Origin: Lawsonibacter sp.
GTDB lineage: Bacteria; Bacillota; Clostridia; Oscillospirales; Oscillospiraceae
NCBI GenBank assembly: GCA_022801435.1
Contig: JAAWSG010000018.1
Location: 1-39,388, forward strand
DNA length: 39,388 nt
Direction of reading: 5' to 3'
Shown: piece after piece, positions 11,932 to 30,552 of the stretch
How positions within the stretch are numbered: the first letter of the stretch is position 1
Layout of the letters: each line of letters opens with the position of its first letter
The notes under the pieces: model-generated
Databases searched by the model: none
What the model saw: the letters and a program-made list of their open reading frames with translations, nothing else
What the model was told of the DNA's origin: nothing
Made by a program: the position numbers and the translations under genes

Positions 11932-12327
11932 CTAGGACTGTGGAACATCCCCGCTCCGGAATATGACGCAGGCGAAATGGAGCGCAATATAGGGGAATGC
12001 AGCTGCGGCGAATAGTTTCATCATTAAGATGGGGGGCACCCAATCGAACACAATACCAGCGAATGTGCCCACAAGGAAGAGAAGTAAAAAGCCTAAATAG
12101 AAATCAATTACCTTGGTCAGTTTTTTGATCAAAGCAGTTTTCGTGTCCCGCTTTGCCCAGCGCTCAACAAATTCCAGCGGAAAGGTCATTCCAATGGTCA
12201 GGAAAAGAAACTCCAGTACTGATGGCTCATAAATGCCGTTGAGCAGGAGGGGAAGAAACGAGAGGGCGCTGAACAAGCATAAGCCAGCAGGAAGAATGCG
12301 GGATGAAATATGATTCCAGAATGCCAA
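11932..12327 (-). CDS. Hypothetical four-helix membrane protein
   Basis: I do not recognise the family. The protein (131 residues from TTG 12327) shows about four hydrophobic stretches: ALAFWNHISSRILPAGLCLF, EFLFLTIGMTFPLEF, FYLGFLLLFLVGTFAGIVF and FAAAAFPYIALHFACVIF. A basic loop (ERWAKRDTKTALIKKLTKV) separates the second and third. TTG 12327 follows GGAGGT by seven bases and is preferred; an ATG ten codons upstream (12357) has no ribosome site and is the alternative. Base composition is more AT-rich than the neighbours, which hints at separate origin. It is monocistronic, with a terminator downstream and a 10-bp perfect dyad about 55 bases upstream of the 12357 ATG. Confidence 0.65.
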   Translation of the reverse strand: MAFWNHISSRILPAGLCLFSALSFLPLLLNGIYEPSVLEFLFLTIGMTFPLEFVERWAKRDTKTALIKKLTKVIDFYLGFLLLFLVGTFAGIVFDWVPPILMMKLFAAAAFPYIALHFACVIFRSGDVPQS

Positions 12328-12410
12328 TGCGGTTACCTCCAGTGCAACCAGAATCATCTATTTGTGGGTTGAATATTCAAAAGTATTATGTAATGTACCA
12401 TCTGCTTTAT

Positions 12411-12438
12411 ACAACCTATACCCCAAAATATAGGTTGT
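12411..12438. promoter_or_regulatory. Perfect 10-bp inverted repeat, operator candidate
   Basis: ACAACCTATA (12411-12420), 8-base centre CCCCAAAA, TATAGGTTGT (12429-12438). There is no T-run on either side, so it is not a terminator. It lies in the upstream region of the minus-strand membrane protein gene. The regulator is unknown. Confidence 0.6.
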
Positions 12439-12595
12439 GGATATGGCAACTCGATAAGGAAAGCTTTCTGTGCCATTATATTATTATATAAAATCACGAA
12501 TGTCAATAGGAAAAATGAAAATATTTCAAAAAAGATTAGTGGATATAAAATATATATATTGTGTGGGCTGGACAGAGGGGATTTTTTCTTACGGC

Positions 12596-12683
12596 GGTTT
12601 CTCTGGTACGGTCCAGGCGTGCGTATGCAGGGACACGACTTGTCGTGTCCGCGGTCATCGCGCCCCTGGAAGGAGGAGAAACC
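12596..12683. repeat. 88-base nested inverted repeat with 20-base core palindrome
   Basis: Three perfectly nested arm pairs: GGTTTCTC (12596-12603) with GAGAAACC (12676-12683); TCCAGG (12612-12617) with CCTGGA (12665-12670); GGACACGAC (12631-12639) with GTCGTGTCC (12642-12650) around TT. The core recurs at 18773-18790. It is either a palindromic dispersed element or a structured RNA upstream of the Asp23-like promoter. Confidence 0.65.
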
Positions 12684-12723
12684 AGATTTTACGAGACGGG
12701 CACGGAGAACGGTCAATTTGGGC

Positions 12724-12752
12724 TTGTATTTTCCGACGAAATCGAATACAAT
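12724..12752 (+). promoter_or_regulatory. Promoter of the Asp23-like/fakA-like operon
   Basis: -35 TTGTAT (12724-12729) and -10 TACAAT (12747-12752), spacer 17, about 50 bases before the ATG at 12805. Confidence 0.7.
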
Positions 12753-12804
12753 AGGGACAGAATCAAAAACGCTTCGATCCTCATGGAAAGGGAGGTAAGG
12801 ACCC

Positions 12805-13152
12805 ATGAAACTGGAAACAGAATTGGGCGAGATCCGCATCAGCAGCGACGTATTTACCACCGTCACCGGAAGCGCGGCCACCAACTGCTACGGGGTGAAG
12901 GGGATGGCGGTGCGCTCCACCACCGACGGGCTGGTCCATCTGCTCAAGCGGGAGTCCATGGCCAAGGGAGTCAAGGTGTACTACAACGAGGACGGGACCG
13001 TCTCCATTGAGCTGCACATCATTGTGGAGAACGGGGTCAACCTGATGGCGGTCTGCCGCTCCATTATGGGGGAGGTCCGCTACGTGGTCAGCAAGACCAC
13101 AGGGGTGGAGGTTGCCTCGGTGGATGTGTGCGTGGACTCTATGCGATTCTAA
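12805..13152 (+). CDS. Asp23/Gls24 (DUF322) family protein, YloU-like
   Basis: The 115-residue cytosolic protein belongs to the Asp23/Gls24 family, small envelope-stress or cell-wall-associated proteins of Gram-positives. The pattern ELGEIRISSDVFTTVTGSAA, then YNEDGTVSIELHIIVENGVN and MGEVRYVVSKTTGVEVASVD, matches the family's beta-alpha core and the conserved VxVxxV ending. There is no signal peptide and no membrane anchor. ATG 12805 follows GGGAGGT. It lies 27 bases before the DAK2-domain gene, the same pairing as B. subtilis yloU-yloV, which supports both calls. The molecular role of YloU-type proteins remains poorly defined. Confidence 0.9.
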   Translation: MKLETELGEIRISSDVFTTVTGSAATNCYGVKGMAVRSTTDGLVHLLKRESMAKGVKVYYNEDGTVSIELHIIVENGVNLMAVCRSIMGEVRYVVSKTTGVEVASVDVCVDSMRF

Positions 13153-24569: not shown

Positions 24570-24655
24570 GGATAAGAATACGGTTCGTTTTGGACTCTGC
24601 CGGAAATCGGGACCTCCCAATTATGCGTGTCCCTACCTATCCGCGGTGTGTGGGT

Positions 24656-25678
24656 TCAGGTACACGCCCACTGGGCCAGCAGCTTGGAAAAATCCCGGTT
24701 TTTCAAATCCTCGGACCGGATGAGGAAGTTGACGGAGCCAAAGCCGCCCAGGTACAGGTCCATATCCTCCAGAGAGTCCAGGCTGCCGTCATCGTCGTCC
24801 AGCTGGAAGAGGAGGGTGTCCCAGGCGGTCTGGGCCAGGGCCTGCCGCACCTGCTCGGGGGAGATGCTGTACTGTTTCAAAGACTCCTCGCTCATGCCCC
24901 GGTAGGGATTTTCCCGGGGGTCGCACTGGTAGTACCGGGGGTGGCCGCCGATCTTGCAGCCGCCCCGCTGTGTCTGTTTCTCCAGCCGGTCCAGGGCCTC
25001 CCGCTCCTCGGGGACGTCGGAGCGCATCTGGTAGGGGTTGAACTCCTCCGGGTCCGCGCCTGGCAGTCGGGCCTCCAGGGCGGCGCAAAACAGCTCCTGG
25101 AAGAGGTACTCCTCGTCCCCCGCCCCCTCCTCCTCCGGGGGGAGGAAGGTGAGTTTCAGGGGCACGTTGGGACAGCGCCACAAATCGGTGTCCCCCCTTG
25201 CGATCTCCTCCAGGTCGAACTTGTGAGGGGTGCGGGGCATATTTTCCTTGCTGGCCTCCTCCCAGGGGACCGCCATCTTGACCGCACACTCCTCCATCGT
25301 GACAGTGCCGTCCACATCCGGATACCAGGCGGTTTTCCAGTCCTCCTGGGGCGTGCCCTCCCCCGAGTCCTCCCCGCACAGGCCAAAGTCGTCCAGGCCC
25401 ATGTCGGAGAGGAAAATCTGCAAGATGCCCTCTTGGGGAAAGCCTTCCAGCCGTGGCATCTGGGCAAAATTGATCTGGGCGCACAGCCACAGCTGGTTCC
25501 CGTCCTCATCGGTGGGGATTTGTCCCGCCCGGGGCACATAGGGGACGCCTCCCAAATGGCTGTCCGTCACCCCGAAAGGCTCCCGGCTCAGGCGGAGGCG
25601 GCACACCGGGCGCAGGCTCTCCCGCTGGACCTGGTCCACAAGCTCTTGATACAGCTGAATTTTTTCCAGATTGGTCAT
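24656..25678 (-). CDS. YwqG-family (DUF1963) protein
   Basis: The 340-residue cytosolic protein has the YwqG pattern: HLGGVPYVPRAGQIPTDEDG, NQLWLCAQINFAQMPRLEGF, PQEGILQIFLSDMG, then a long acidic middle and an ending KLGGHPRYYQCDP-like block (here KIGGHPRYYQCDPRENPYRG). The last residues give LLFQLDDDDG and FGSVNFLIRSEDL, again typical. B. subtilis ywqG lies beside the ywqJ/ywqK LXG toxin-antitoxin genes, and DUF1963 proteins are often near toxin-immunity loci, but their function is unresolved. ATG 25678 follows GGAGGT, and the upstream gene's stop overlaps it by four bases, so translation is coupled. It is the second gene after the Ile T-box. Confidence 0.88.
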   Translation of the reverse strand: MTNLEKIQLYQELVDQVQRESLRPVCRLRLSREPFGVTDSHLGGVPYVPRAGQIPTDEDGNQLWLCAQINFAQMPRLEGFPQEGILQIFLSDMGLDDFGLCGEDSGEGTPQEDWKTAWYPDVDGTVTMEECAVKMAVPWEEASKENMPRTPHKFDLEEIARGDTDLWRCPNVPLKLTFLPPEEEGAGDEEYLFQELFCAALEARLPGADPEEFNPYQMRSDVPEEREALDRLEKQTQRGGCKIGGHPRYYQCDPRENPYRGMSEESLKQYSISPEQVRQALAQTAWDTLLFQLDDDDGSLDSLEDMDLYLGGFGSVNFLIRSEDLKNRDFSKLLAQWACT

Positions 25679-26562
25679 GGCAATACCTCCGACAGGTTTT
25701 TGACCTCCACAAGCACGTGCTTGGCGTCGTACCGGGGACACTGGTCCAGCTTCACCTTCTGGGCAAACTCGGCAAAGGAGAGGTAGCCCAAGGTGTCCGC
25801 CTTCATCTCGCCGTTCTCCTCCCACACCCGGTTGAGGGACACCCGCCAGTCTGTGACCTGCTCCGTGGTCAGGTCGAACCCCTGGAGCAGAACGGAGTAC
25901 AGCGGGGGCACAAAGGGCTCCAGGGGGAGGATGGAGGGGACCTCCTCGGTGATGGCGTACACCCCCAAAACATCCGTGCCGTTCTTGTGCCGGAAGAAGT
26001 TGGGCTTGGCGTAGTACCAGTCCCCGGTCTGCTTCTGGGTCAGGAAGCGTTGGAAAAAGTCCAGGTCGCCGGTGCTCAGCCGCTCCAGGGTCTCCTCCTC
26101 CAGGCAGAGGGGGTACACCGCCCCGGTGAGGACCCCGTCGCCGTCCTCCTTCCACCGCTCGGCCATAGCCTTGAGGAATCCCGCACAGCCCTTCCGCTGG
26201 TCCTCCATCAGCCGTGGGATGTCCCCCAGACGGTGGTTCTCCCCGTCCTGGGTGAAGCGGTCTGTCTTCCAGAAGCGGCAGAGGGACTCCACCAGCCCAT
26301 AGAAGATCTCCAGGTCCCGGGGAGTGCAGGGGAGGGTCTGACGGAGATAGGCCCGCTCCTTCTCCCCGGGAGCGGCCTGGAGATAGCAGCCCCGGCCAGG
26401 CTGGACCGGGTCGCAGAGCACCCGTCCGTCCGAGGCCGGACCCGGGTCCAGCACGCCGGCCTGGTTCCAGTGCCCCATCCGCAGTCCGGCGGGGGACAGC
26501 TCCGCCTCGGTGAGGGGTTTTTTGAACAGTCCTTTTTGCGTGATGACAATTTCGATGGCCAT
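25675..26562 (-). CDS. DUF4299-like protein
   Basis: The 295-residue protein starts MAIEIVITQKGLFKKPLTEA and ends with LGYLSFAEFAQKVKLDQCPR then KHVLVEVKNL. It looks like the DUF4299 group of Firmicutes, but recognition is tentative and no catalytic motif stands out. There is no signal peptide or membrane segment. ATG 26562 follows AAAGGAG by nine bases; an in-frame extension to 26673 would run through the T-box terminator and is rejected. It is the first gene after the T-box leader and overlaps the YwqG-like gene by four bases. Pairing of these two may mean a joint role, perhaps immunity-like; this is inference from context only. Confidence 0.75.
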   Translation of the reverse strand: MAIEIVITQKGLFKKPLTEAELSPAGLRMGHWNQAGVLDPGPASDGRVLCDPVQPGRGCYLQAAPGEKERAYLRQTLPCTPRDLEIFYGLVESLCRFWKTDRFTQDGENHRLGDIPRLMEDQRKGCAGFLKAMAERWKEDGDGVLTGAVYPLCLEEETLERLSTGDLDFFQRFLTQKQTGDWYYAKPNFFRHKNGTDVLGVYAITEEVPSILPLEPFVPPLYSVLLQGFDLTTEQVTDWRVSLNRVWEENGEMKADTLGYLSFAEFAQKVKLDQCPRYDAKHVLVEVKNLSEVLP

Positions 26563-26579
26563 ACGCGTCCGCTCCTTTC

Positions 26580-26831
26580 TAAAATAAAAGCGCCTCTGCC
26601 TCCACAAAGAGACAAAGGCGCGAAACCTCTGCGGTACCACTCTTCTTGCCGGCGAGAAAAACCGGCCACTCAAATGCTGCCCTGTAACGGAGGCGTCCGG
26701 AGGGGCCTACTGCCTGTTCGGCTCCCCTGCTCCAAGGTGATGTTCGCCGCCCCCTCCCGTCCGCCTTGCACCAAACGGCGGCTCTCTGCGCGTCTCAGAG
26801 GCGGGTACTTGTCCTTTTCCACGCATGTAAC
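26580..26831 (-). promoter_or_regulatory. T-box riboswitch with isoleucine (ATC) specifier
   Basis: On the minus strand the leader shows stem I landmarks in order: GACAAGTACC, AGAGAGCC (26780-26787), GGTGCAAG (26765-26772), then GAAC-ATC-ACC with the specifier ATC at 26739-26741, and CCTTGGAGC. The T-box AGAGTGGTACCGC (26631-26643) follows, then the terminator GCGCCT (26616-26621 arm) with AGGCGC (26590-26595 arm) and TTTTATTTT. Uncharged tRNA-Ile should cause read-through. ileS is the fourth gene of the transcript. Confidence 0.93.
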
Positions 26832-26837
26832 GCCCCT

Positions 26838-26866
26838 ATCTTATCCGTTTTTCCCCGCCTTGTCAA
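26838..26866 (-). promoter_or_regulatory. Promoter of the T-box transcript
   Basis: Minus-strand perfect -35 TTGACA (26861-26866) and -10 TAAGAT (26838-26843), spacer 17. The -35 overlaps the stop codon of the 26863 gene, so no terminator separates the protease operon from this leader. Confidence 0.88.
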
Positions 26867-27555
26867 GAGTCAAGGGGCACATAAATCCAATAAAGTTTGT
26901 CGGCATAGCCGGCATAGAGCAGGTCGGGATTCCTGCCGTCTCGGTAGACCTCCGCCGGCTCCCAAAAGGTGTTGGATTGAAGCTCCTGGGATACGAACAT
27001 GTCATAGCCGATAAAATTGGTGCTGCCGATAAAAGCTGCGCCCTCGGGGATTTCATCTACTGTAATGTCCGTTCCGTAGCGCTCATCATACTTGGGGGAG
27101 TCCTCATAGGAAACTGAGGTCAGGGAGATGTAGGTGGTCCCGTTGTGATACAGGTAGTCCCTCATTGCCTCGCTTGTGGCGTAGCGCGTGGGGGTAGCAC
27201 CCGTCTCCACGTAGATGATTTGAGGAAGCTTTTCGTTTCCATATAGTTCCGTGCCCACGCTGAGTCCATAGGCCTGAAAGTTTTCCGTCGGGGTATCGGC
27301 CACCGTAGACTGTACCTCTCCAATACAGGTGAAATTGTGGTGAGAGGAGTCGTAGTCCGGGTTAACTGGAGGCTTTGACGACATCCAATAGATTTGGCCG
27401 TTCACCATGAGATGGGGACGCATCGTTGCCGGGAAAAAGAAATCGTCGTCTTTTTCCCGTGTGAGGAAAACGCAGAGGAGGGCGAGGGCGATACATACAA
27501 TGCCACCAAATAAAAATATACGTCCCTTATAACTGTTAAATTTACCTGATTTCAT
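26863..27555 (-). CDS. Membrane-anchored hypothetical partner of the C47-like protease
   Basis: I do not recognise this 230-residue protein. A basic start (MKSGKFNSYKGR) and one hydrophobic helix (about 13-31, IFLFGGIVCIALALLCVFL) suggest an N-in anchor with about 195 residues outside the cell. The outer part may hold two similar beta-rich units: CIGEVQSTVADTPTENFQAY with GTELYGNEKLPQIIYVE, and FIGSTNFIGYDMFVSQELQS with PAEVYRDGRNPDLLYAGYAD. Its ATG shares one base with the protease stop (TAATG), and there is no ribosome site, so it is made by translational coupling. The order protease then small partner recalls staphopain-staphostatin operons, but the sequence is not staphostatin-like and location differs. 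It could be an inhibitor, immunity protein, activator or substrate. Confidence 0.7.
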   Translation of the reverse strand: MKSGKFNSYKGRIFLFGGIVCIALALLCVFLTREKDDDFFFPATMRPHLMVNGQIYWMSSKPPVNPDYDSSHHNFTCIGEVQSTVADTPTENFQAYGLSVGTELYGNEKLPQIIYVETGATPTRYATSEAMRDYLYHNGTTYISLTSVSYEDSPKYDERYGTDITVDEIPEGAAFIGSTNFIGYDMFVSQELQSNTFWEPAEVYRDGRNPDLLYAGYADKLYWIYVPLDS

Positions 27556-28661
27556 TAGTAATTGTTATACCAGTATAGAGCAAGTGAATAATGGAAAACT
27601 ACGCGGTCTGGTCGTTCCACAATATAGTTGTTTAAGTCAATAACAGTTTCAAAGAATGGATTCCAAGGATTCCAAATAGTAACAGTTCCTCTCACATCTT
27701 CATATCCAAGTGCAACAAGGGCATGTCCACTGATAGCTGCTAAATCGTTCATAGCTAAGATTAGGGGACGATTGTTATTAATTTCTGATACAAGTTTAGT
27801 ATAAAAACTATTGTAATCTGGCCAGCGTTCGGACTCTTTAGTGTGTATGTTATATCTAGTATTCATATATGAACGGAGCTTATGGAAGTCGAATACTGTT
27901 CTGTCTGTGAAATCCTCCCCCTCGACCCCATAGTTTTCTATCATCACATTCAAGGCATTCTTGTTTACACCTCTATACCGTAAAACCATTGCCGTAGCAT
28001 AAGCGAGACACCAGTTATTCGCTCCTTGGGTCTCTGAAATGCTCATAGGTAGAATTTTACTTGTTCTTGAAGAAGGCGCTAATTGAATTTGATCAAAGGG
28101 AACACAATTTACAGTTTCCAATTCGCTTTCCGCAGATATGGTATATGTGGTGTCAATTTCTGTGGAAACTGGGATAGTGAATACTTCTTTTTTATCATTA
28201 GCGAGTTTGAATATAACTGATGAAGAATCACTATCTTTACCTTCAAATGTGATTCTCAAGGGATTTGAAATAGTTGTCATTTTAGCTATTTCATTTAAGT
28301 CCTCTGCAAGAAACGGTGATACCACACCTGTAAGCTCTCCAGTGGAACCTAAATAGACACGGAAAGTTAAAACAATTTTGTGGTTCGAGTATATAGGGAA
28401 GTAGTAAATATCAGATTTTTGGGAGCTAAATGTAAAGGGTCTTCCCAAAGAAGCGTTTGAGAGATTGTATCCAGCTAGTATATCACCTACAATCTCTTTC
28501 GCATAATCTATATATTGCTCTGGGCATTGTTTCGAGAGAATATAAAGTTGCTGAATTGAGGTTGAATCATTGCTATTGACATTGACTGCAAGGACGGTCT
28601 GATTAGTTGTAAACAAAAGAACCAGTGCTAAAAACATAGAAGTAATTCGTTTGATTTTCAT
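27555..28661 (-). CDS. Secreted staphopain-like cysteine protease (peptidase C47 type)
   Basis: The 368-residue preproprotein has a signal peptide (MKIKRITSMFLALVLLFTTN, cleavage near LA-VN at 25-26) and a propeptide-like region to about residue 208. The papain-fold domain has Gln212, six residues before Cys218 in ETQGANNWCLAYATAMVLRY, His313 in SGHALVALGYED and Asn331 in IWNPWNPF. The NNWC...GHA...WNPW pattern and the size match staphopains (clan CA, C47) best; C39-like bacterial proteases are the alternative. ATG 28661 follows GGAGG by seven bases. A consensus promoter and a perfect palindrome lie upstream. Base composition is strikingly AT-rich (21 of 60 bases G+C at 28081-28140, against 38 of 60 at 13261-13320), so it was probably acquired by transfer. 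Confidence 0.85.
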   Translation of the reverse strand: MKIKRITSMFLALVLLFTTNQTVLAVNVNSNDSTSIQQLYILSKQCPEQYIDYAKEIVGDILAGYNLSNASLGRPFTFSSQKSDIYYFPIYSNHKIVLTFRVYLGSTGELTGVVSPFLAEDLNEIAKMTTISNPLRITFEGKDSDSSSVIFKLANDKKEVFTIPVSTEIDTTYTISAESELETVNCVPFDQIQLAPSSRTSKILPMSISETQGANNWCLAYATAMVLRYRGVNKNALNVMIENYGVEGEDFTDRTVFDFHKLRSYMNTRYNIHTKESERWPDYNSFYTKLVSEINNNRPLILAMNDLAAISGHALVALGYEDVRGTVTIWNPWNPFFETVIDLNNYIVERPDRVVFHYSLALYWYNNY

Positions 28662-28709
28662 AGTACGTCCTCCATTCAAATTGTGAATTGTATATATTGC
28701 TCAACTGCC

Positions 28710-28727: not shown

Positions 28728-28756
28728 ATTTTATCAGATTATCAAGGAAATGTCAA
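28728..28756 (-). promoter_or_regulatory. Promoter of the protease operon
   Basis: Minus-strand perfect -35 TTGACA (28751-28756) and -10 TAAAAT (28728-28733), spacer 17, about 67 bases before the ATG at 28661. Confidence 0.85.
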
Positions 28757-29964: not shown

Positions 29965-30552
29965 ATGAAACACGGGAAAAAGAGGGGATTTTTTGGGGCG
30001 CTCCTGCTGGCGGCGGTCTGCGGGGCGGTTCTGCTGTCCGGACCCCGGACCGCGCTGCTGGAGAATGAGAAGGAATGGGACATCCCGGACGGGCGGGTCC
30101 CGCTGTCCGGGCTCCCGGAGGCCGGCGGGGAGGACGCGGACTGGCGGGAGGGGCTGGAAGAGACCGAGATCACCCAGGTGGAGGAGGTGCTCCGGCTGGT
30201 CAACGAGGAGCGGGTCCAGGCGGGGCTGGAGGAGCTGGAGCTGGACCCCGCTCTGTGCGCGGCGGCCCAGGTACGGGCGGAGGAGTGTGTGGGCAGCTTC
30301 AGCCACACCCGCCCGGACGGCAGCTCCTATCGGACCGCCCTGAGCGAGCAGGGGGTGGAGAAAAGCTATGTGGGGGAGAATGTGGCCACCGGCTACCCCG
30401 ACGCCCGGCGGGTGGTGGAGGGCTGGATGGAGTCGGAGGGCCACCGGGCGAACATCCTCAACGCCAGCTGCTGCCGCATCGGAATCGGCCTGGAGGAGAA
30501 CGCCGGGAACCGCTACCGGGGGTACGCCTGGTGTCAGCTGTTTACCGACTAA
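29965..30552 (+). CDS. Exported CAP (SCP/PR1) domain protein
   Basis: The 195-residue protein has a basic start and hydrophobic segment (KKRGFFGALLLAAVCGAVLL, about 6-25), so it is exported or membrane-anchored. The CAP domain occupies about 70-193: EVLRLVNEERVQAGLEELEL, CVGSFSHTRPDGSSYRTALS with the conserved histidine, YVGENVATGYPD, VEGWMESEGHRANILNA, and a final YAWCQLF. Bacterial CAP proteins with this HxxR-GEN-GHR set include B. subtilis YkwD and spore-coat SafA-associated types; the biochemical role is unclear. ATG 29965 follows GAGGAGG by nine bases. It is monocistronic, with a promoter and terminator of its own. Confidence 0.93.
   Translation: MKHGKKRGFFGALLLAAVCGAVLLSGPRTALLENEKEWDIPDGRVPLSGLPEAGGEDADWREGLEETEITQVEEVLRLVNEERVQAGLEELELDPALCAAAQVRAEECVGSFSHTRPDGSSYRTALSEQGVEKSYVGENVATGYPDARRVVEGWMESEGHRANILNASCCRIGIGLEENAGNRYRGYAWCQLFTD

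Follow-up and report, generated by a model that had tools for sequence, protein, structure and literature searches.

Why would a bacterium that secretes a cysteine protease keep a second protein, encoded by an overlapping gene, at its own membrane? The question is raised by two genes on the minus strand of a 39,388-nucleotide contig from Lawsonibacter sp. (assembly GCA_022801435.1, contig JAAWSG010000018.1), which was analyzed at its full length and is called the window here. The first gene (28661..27555) encodes a secreted C47-type (staphopain-like) cysteine protease zymogen of 368 residues and the second (27555..26863) a membrane-anchored partner of 230 residues; both reading frames, proposed by an initial annotation made from the letters alone, are real. 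We find that genes of the partner's family accompany related proteases in other anaerobes. This conserved pairing is the new result of this analysis, and the link between protease and partner looks functional rather than accidental. By a slight lean, we take the partner to be probably a cognate inhibitor or immunity protein that is anchored in the membrane and lies outside the cell.

Recurrence of the protease-partner pair

Related protease loci were found by a pattern scan of a collection of 84,980 species with two short patterns, by which relatives will have been missed. The scan returned eight loci besides the window, with Tissierella praeacuta, Anaerocolumna aminovalerica, Clostridium tepidiprofundi, and five metagenome-assembled Clostridia or Bacillota as hosts. 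C47-type proteases, one of which, in such an anaerobe and with this partner, the initial annotation had supposed might be new, are carried by other Clostridia as well. It had also held that its proposal would be refuted if homologues of the partner proved to occur mostly without a protease nearby. Instead, the partner family adjoins the protease in eight of the nine loci (window included, and with two of the seven other paired loci near-identical), and the ninth is cut by a contig edge. The protease locus member of A. aminovalerica is 93% identical to that of T. praeacuta. The spacing of the paired genes ranges from a 1-base overlap to 36 nt in seven of the eight cases and is 194 nt in locus L043. 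In L041 the partner lies upstream of the protease and elsewhere downstream, so that the pairing is independent of one gene order.

A domain of some 90 residues is common to all eight partners, occurring once in each but twice in the window, and follows roughly the pattern P-x-I-x-V-x-D-x-L-Y ... L-P-x-G-x-x-x-I-G-E-I ... E-N-F-x-S-N ... G-x-x-L-Y ... Y-x-x-Y. The means by which they are held at the surface, judged by eye, differ. Five have a lipobox cysteine and are lipoproteins of 119 (L037), 121 (L038), 140 (L040), about 146-167 (L041), and 125 residues (L042), and three have a hydrophobic anchor, namely the window partner and the single-pass partners of L039 and L043 (118 residues each). 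Because two ways of anchoring occur, the surface position of the partners seems to have been selected.

The kinship of the partners was assessed with leave-one-out profiles, which regained each omitted partner (E 4e-15 to 0.0041); no unrelated frame among the 610 did better than E 0.2 in any run. The window partner, absent from these profiles, scored E 2.3e-17 to 3.7e-7, and 8.8e-14 with all seven others included. As this test uses protease neighbors to find protease neighbors, a second profile was made from proteins seen without a protease. Built on ten of their domains, it recovered the window partner at E 7.5e-18 and the other seven at 1.7e-12 to 1.7e-4, so that all eight partners rank above the best other frame of 610 (E 2.3). 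One of the ten, G403, has a domain gene that begins 233 bases from a contig end, and a protease may lie beyond. With G403 and G509 left out, the remaining eight domains gave E 1e-11 for the window partner, 0.024 for the weakest partner (L043), and 0.59 for the best other frame. The protease-free domains were themselves first found by likeness to the partners, and the test therefore shows homology and place, not independent discovery.

The protease and its partner in the window

The initial annotation described the first protein as a papain-type relative of the staphopains with a named catalytic set, a signal peptide, and a propeptide-like region, all of which stands. Against Pfam, the window protease (P0001) matches C39_2 (E 8.1e-9), C47 (6.4e-6), and C70 (2.3e-4), each above the curated cut-off, with C39_2 outscoring C47. 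The only solved structures that its sequence matches are two staphopains, 8oig (E 3.4e-8) and 1cv8 (E 1.8e-4). The catalytic domain (27558..28046) carries Gln212 (28026-28028), Cys218 (28008-28010), His313 (27723-27725), and Asn331 (27669-27671), papain-type residues in the C47 order, with the motif WNPW. Across 11 aligned proteases, one of them P0001, Cys218, His313, Asn331, and Trp333 are invariant and Gln212 is kept in ten; L044 has Gly at this position, which is taken as an alignment shift. The equivalents in staphopain C are given in an excerpt of PMC10254297 as Gln17, Cys23, His119, Asn140, and Trp142.

By eye, the protein opens with a Sec signal peptide of about residues 1-25 (28587..28661) that has a basic start, a hydrophobic core, and an AVLA end. 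It has no lipobox, leaving the protease without an anchor of its own. The propeptide that follows (about residues 26-205, 28047..28586, borders by eye) is homologous to the staphopain proregion. An hhalign comparison of five clostridial with two staphylococcal and enterococcal proregions gave 97% (E 8.5e-11), and the P0001 proregion alone gave 87% (E 3.6e-6), while four shuffled controls all stayed at or below 0.12%. The Pfam Staphopain_pro model gives no match to the P0001 proregion and reaches the enterococcal protein only. Judged from its sequence, the window protease is a divergent C47 zymogen. Its gene is preceded by a Shine-Dalgarno sequence, GGAGG, 7 nt before the ATG (28669..28673), and by a promoter-like TTGACA-17-TAAAAT with TG before the -10 (28728..28756), which matches the consensus at 11 of 12 positions; the window holds nine such promoter-like sites against 5.6 expected from shuffles.

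The partner gene follows through a TAATG stop/start overlap (27553..27557) in which one base is shared, and no Shine-Dalgarno sequence is seen ahead of it, as had been noted before. The protein (P0002) is composed of a signal anchor and two copies of the unannotated domain. Its transmembrane segment, placed by eye at about residues 13-32 (27460..27519), coincides with a predicted helix at residues 8-33, after which some 200 residues follow in the model, in keeping with the earlier claim that the partner sits at the membrane with most of its mass beyond the anchor. The first domain copy spans about residues 41-115 (27211..27435) and the second about residues 130-230 (26866..27168). The AlphaFold model of the window partner is weak, with a mean predicted local distance difference test (pLDDT) score of 61, and shows a similar strand pattern twice. 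That of the Tissierella partner is good throughout its ectodomain, where ten-residue blocks from residue 31 onward score 86-95, and predicts an all-beta structure of six strands. A structure search found no good match among solved structures, the fatty-acid-binding and lipocalin rows all being weak, and no Pfam or NCBIfam family covers the partners above its cut-off. The staphostatin family (I57) is characterized by a lipocalin-like beta-barrel whose substrate-like segment contains Gly.

The partner domain away from proteases

The initial annotation regarded the partner as having no recognized relatives, a view that no longer holds, as the family occurs beside other proteases and has further kin in proteins linked to extracytoplasmic function (ECF) sigma factors and in lone lipoproteins. 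A survey of 391 class genomes, apparently the sample also used in the protease profile search, found the domain in eight at a threshold of E 1e-3. Four of these have the protease and score E 3.4e-24 to 4.5e-31, being the profile's own members; the four others score E 8.1e-5 to 9.5e-10. In G403 and G509 the domain is part of a lone lipoprotein, in G366 it belongs to a two-domain lipoprotein, and in G594 to a protein whose gene follows one for an ECF sigma factor; no protease was recognized in these four within the 4-8 kb read around the domain or by the class-wide protease profile search. In two genomes of the window's own genus, G013 and G047 (loci L003 and L004), tandem copies of the domain lie behind an ECF sigma gene, identified as such by Pfam, and the frames beside these ECF-linked proteins contain no protease. 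The idea of a dedicated partner is supported, the family adjoining the protease at nearly every protease locus; more distant copies of the domain have no protease in view in four of the eight class genomes as well as in G013 and G047.

The two copies in the window are less like each other (z about 7) than like copies elsewhere. For copy 1 the best counterpart is copy 1 of the G013 protein (z 14.6); for copy 2 the Tissierella partner and copy 2 of G013 score the same (z 11.6 each). In layout, the window partner comes closest to the ECF-linked proteins of its genus. The two have in common tandem domains outside the membrane; the ECF-linked proteins differ in having a cytoplasmic N-terminal part and a sigma gene upstream. 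The window partner was considered as an ECF anti-sigma-like protein and rejected as such, as it has no cytoplasmic N-terminal part and its neighbors are genes for a DUF4299 protein and a thiamine pyrophosphokinase.

Comparison with known systems

Like the staphostatins, Spi is an inhibitor encoded beside a secreted papain-fold protease. The known small neighbors of such proteases are inhibitors, as far as excerpts of PMC2873492, PMC7863939, and PMC3462683 describe them. The staphopain-staphostatin system (C47/I57) resembles the clostridial pairs in its secreted papain-fold zymogen, its homologous proregion and catalytic set, and its small beta-rich neighbor; staphostatins are described as beta-barrels that bind the protease in a substrate-like manner (PMC7863939, in part). 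In pAVX, the staphostatin A gene lies directly behind the staphopain gene. However, staphostatins are thought to be cytoplasmic (PMC3462683, in part), whereas the partners described here lie outside the cell and are anchored, often as lipoproteins, and doubled in the window. Each has an export feature unlike staphostatin: the window partner has a predicted signal anchor, and the other seven, judged by eye, begin with a lipobox or a hydrophobic stretch.

A second system is that of the C10 proteases of Bacteroides, which are accompanied by exported staphostatin-like proteins, Bfi and Bti, read as protecting the envelope in excerpts of PMC2873492 and PMC3462683. By the description in the same excerpts, the likeness extends to a size of 116-138 residues, export or lipid anchoring, predicted beta-rich structure, and a position up- or downstream of a papain-fold protease; several of the genes have been shown to be co-transcribed. 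The system differs in its protease family (C10, not C47), its Gram-negative envelope, and the fact that most of its proteases are themselves predicted lipoproteins, as these sources have it. Plasmids of E. faecium carry a C47 protease with a proregion (PF14731 match) and an overlapping gene for a small lipoprotein (by eye), but that lipoprotein scores -0.6 bits with the partner profile and is not recognized. Among the literature matches listed, which are mostly non-subscription papers, none describes a clostridial C47 protease that has an anchored partner, which is weak evidence of absence.

Further papain-superfamily proteins with an adjacent small lipoprotein gene lie near two of the pairs. 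Near the Anaerocolumna pair, a C39_2 domain protein occurs with a 140-residue lipoprotein (L038:835-2379), and near the Tissierella pair a C39-like frame occurs with a 160-residue lipoprotein (L032:701-1984, by eye); protease-plus-lipoprotein pairing may be a wider theme. Similar-looking secreted proteins of 144-161 residues, recognized by eye, also lie near the pair in three loci (L038:8334-8819, L041:4063-4497, and L032:3672-4121), with no Pfam match in the two tested. In G723 (L068:609-2121), a papain-like frame (Pfam C70, 1.6e-11) is fused to the end of a Mutator transposase frame and adjoins a 262-residue anchored protein that belongs to no Pfam family and whose outer part looks, by eye, like a staphopain proregion. 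On the Lactococcus plasmid pG322 (L071:575-3637), a protein of about 1020 residues annotated as a C47 peptidase lies 18 nt behind a small hypothetical gene.

Possible roles of the partner

The recurrence of the pairing in distant anaerobes points to a partner that guards the cell against its own enzyme. Since small neighbors of secreted papain-fold proteases act as inhibitors wherever their function is known, the role we favor is that of an anchored inhibitor or immunity protein. The clostridial partners fit it by place, size, predicted beta structure, and pairing. The best reading of these comparisons is that the partner is like staphostatin in role and unrelated to it in sequence. The locus would produce a secreted staphopain-type zymogen and, from the overlapping next gene, a membrane-anchored partner whose ectodomain is predicted to be a small beta domain, doubled in the window. 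The partner would remain outside, attached to the producing cell, and bind protease activated at the surface, thereby shielding the secretion machinery and the proteins of the envelope; any protease diffusing away would be free to act on its targets. In this scheme we infer co-transcription, binding, and inhibition, along with the targets of the protease.

If the partner does inhibit, it would represent a new inhibitor class for papain-fold proteases, with the guard posted at the outer membrane face instead of in the cytoplasm. The pairing gives a testable function to a domain family that has no Pfam or NCBIfam entry, and it shows that C47 protease-partner pairs, a feature of Bacilli, occur in several distant Clostridia too. 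The occurrence of the domain on ECF-linked proteins offers a route to what those systems sense. A broader and more tentative proposal is that the domain constitutes a new class of membrane-anchored cysteine-protease inhibitor of Clostridia with no relation to staphostatin, that C47 proteases repeatedly recruit local guards, and that the sensing kin of the partner read out extracellular papain-type proteolysis. In this proposal staphylococci would have cytoplasmic staphostatins as guards, enterococci an unrelated lipoprotein, and the present genome the tandem ectodomain of an ECF-type sensor already resident there.

Several observations weigh against an inhibitor. The partner profile scores staphostatin A at -0.4 bits, which is no match and agrees with the earlier remark that the partner is unlike a staphostatin, and the structure search returned no known inhibitor fold, every match being weak. 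L044 has no visible partner in the 231 bases behind its protease, where the contig ends, or in 5 kb ahead. In L039, the protease is without signal and propeptide and its partner gene is open (L039:957-1939). The domain also occurs with no protease in view, on ECF-linked ectodomains and lone lipoproteins, and is therefore not an inhibitor by nature. As to L039, a decaying protease may leave its partner behind.

Alternatively, the partner may be a docking or maturation factor that holds the zymogen or mature protease at the surface or aids its folding or activation. All eight partners look anchored and the window protease has no anchor of its own, a tandem ectodomain would offer two binding sites, and adjacent genes suit a stoichiometric complex. 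We nonetheless consider this role unlikely, as the protease carries a proregion, by which staphopains are usually kept latent, and the described small neighbors of secreted papain-fold proteases act as inhibitors.

It has also to be considered that the partner is a sensor or deliberate substrate, that is, a protease- or ligand-sensing module that reports on or tunes the neighboring protease. The same tandem domain stands beside ECF sigma factors in the genus (L003 and L004), and a single copy does so in G594; the window partner resembles the G013 protein half by half, with the z scores of 14.6 and 11.6 given above. Yet the window partner has no cytoplasmic N-terminal part and no sigma factor for a neighbor, and the single-domain partners elsewhere are short, with little or nothing inside the cell to signal with, which makes a sensing role rather improbable.

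A weapon and immunity set, in which the protease would be directed at competing bacteria in the manner of plasmid-borne bacteriocins and the producer would owe its immunity to the partner, is very improbable. The likeness of the partner to NisI, of the NisI/SpaI immunity lipoproteins (family model NF033433), is within noise, and staphopain A acts on host proteins according to an excerpt of PMC10318531. Accidental adjacency, in which a transferred protease landed before a resident membrane-protein gene, would account for the composition of the two genes (50.7% guanine plus cytosine (GC) in the partner against 36.9% in the protease, the change coming at about base 55 of the partner) and for a tandem layout that matches resident proteins of the genus, but it is the least probable reading of all and unlikely given the partner profiles and loci, for the domain stands beside the protease in seven other loci (two near-identical) and the stop/start overlap is exact.

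Composition, distribution, and transfer

The pair had been described as an AT-rich cassette, but its two GC contents show that it is not uniformly so; the rest of the window stands at 63.8%. Within the partner gene, GC is 29% over the first 55 bases, as low as in the protease, and 53% in the remainder. It is possible that the tandem ectodomain of a resident protein was recruited locally behind an incoming protease. In L040, both genes (38.6% and 41.2% GC) are set off from surroundings of 52.6%, and in the remaining six loci the GC of the pair is within 0.07 of its surroundings.

The proposal that the pair was acquired by transfer gains support from its distribution. A search with a single-sequence query did not detect the protease in any of 295 other relatives, many of whose genomes are incomplete, and a three-row profile found it in four of the 391 class genomes, its own included. 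Among plasmids, a tblastn search with the protease returned 114 records (94 Enterococcus and 20 Staphylococcus), of which 108 match over at least 80% of the query, with about 24% identity among the 20 matches listed. In G020, of the same genus, the neighboring T-box operon is kept up to window position 26819 and the protease-partner pair is missing, although this is a single comparison, a relative of that operon's first gene being present in three of 60 genomes searched.

Neighboring genes

The T-box leader of this next operon, which lies outside the pair (26605..26830, minus strand), is conserved in G020, and the -35 of the operon's promoter-like site (26866-26838) overlaps the partner stop codon. 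The region 24655-26819 comprises the T-box leader, then the DUF4299 gene and further genes to an apparent ileS (by eye); most of it is kept in G020, whose DUF4299 protein shows 74% identity. A second AT-rich patch of the window, at 11932-12884 with 43-48% GC, contains two overlapping minus-strand frames of 141 and 176 residues that belong to no Pfam family. On the far side of the pair, beyond the thiamine pyrophosphokinase gene, a secreted CAP-domain protein (Pfam CAP, 5.1e-22) is encoded at 29965-30552.
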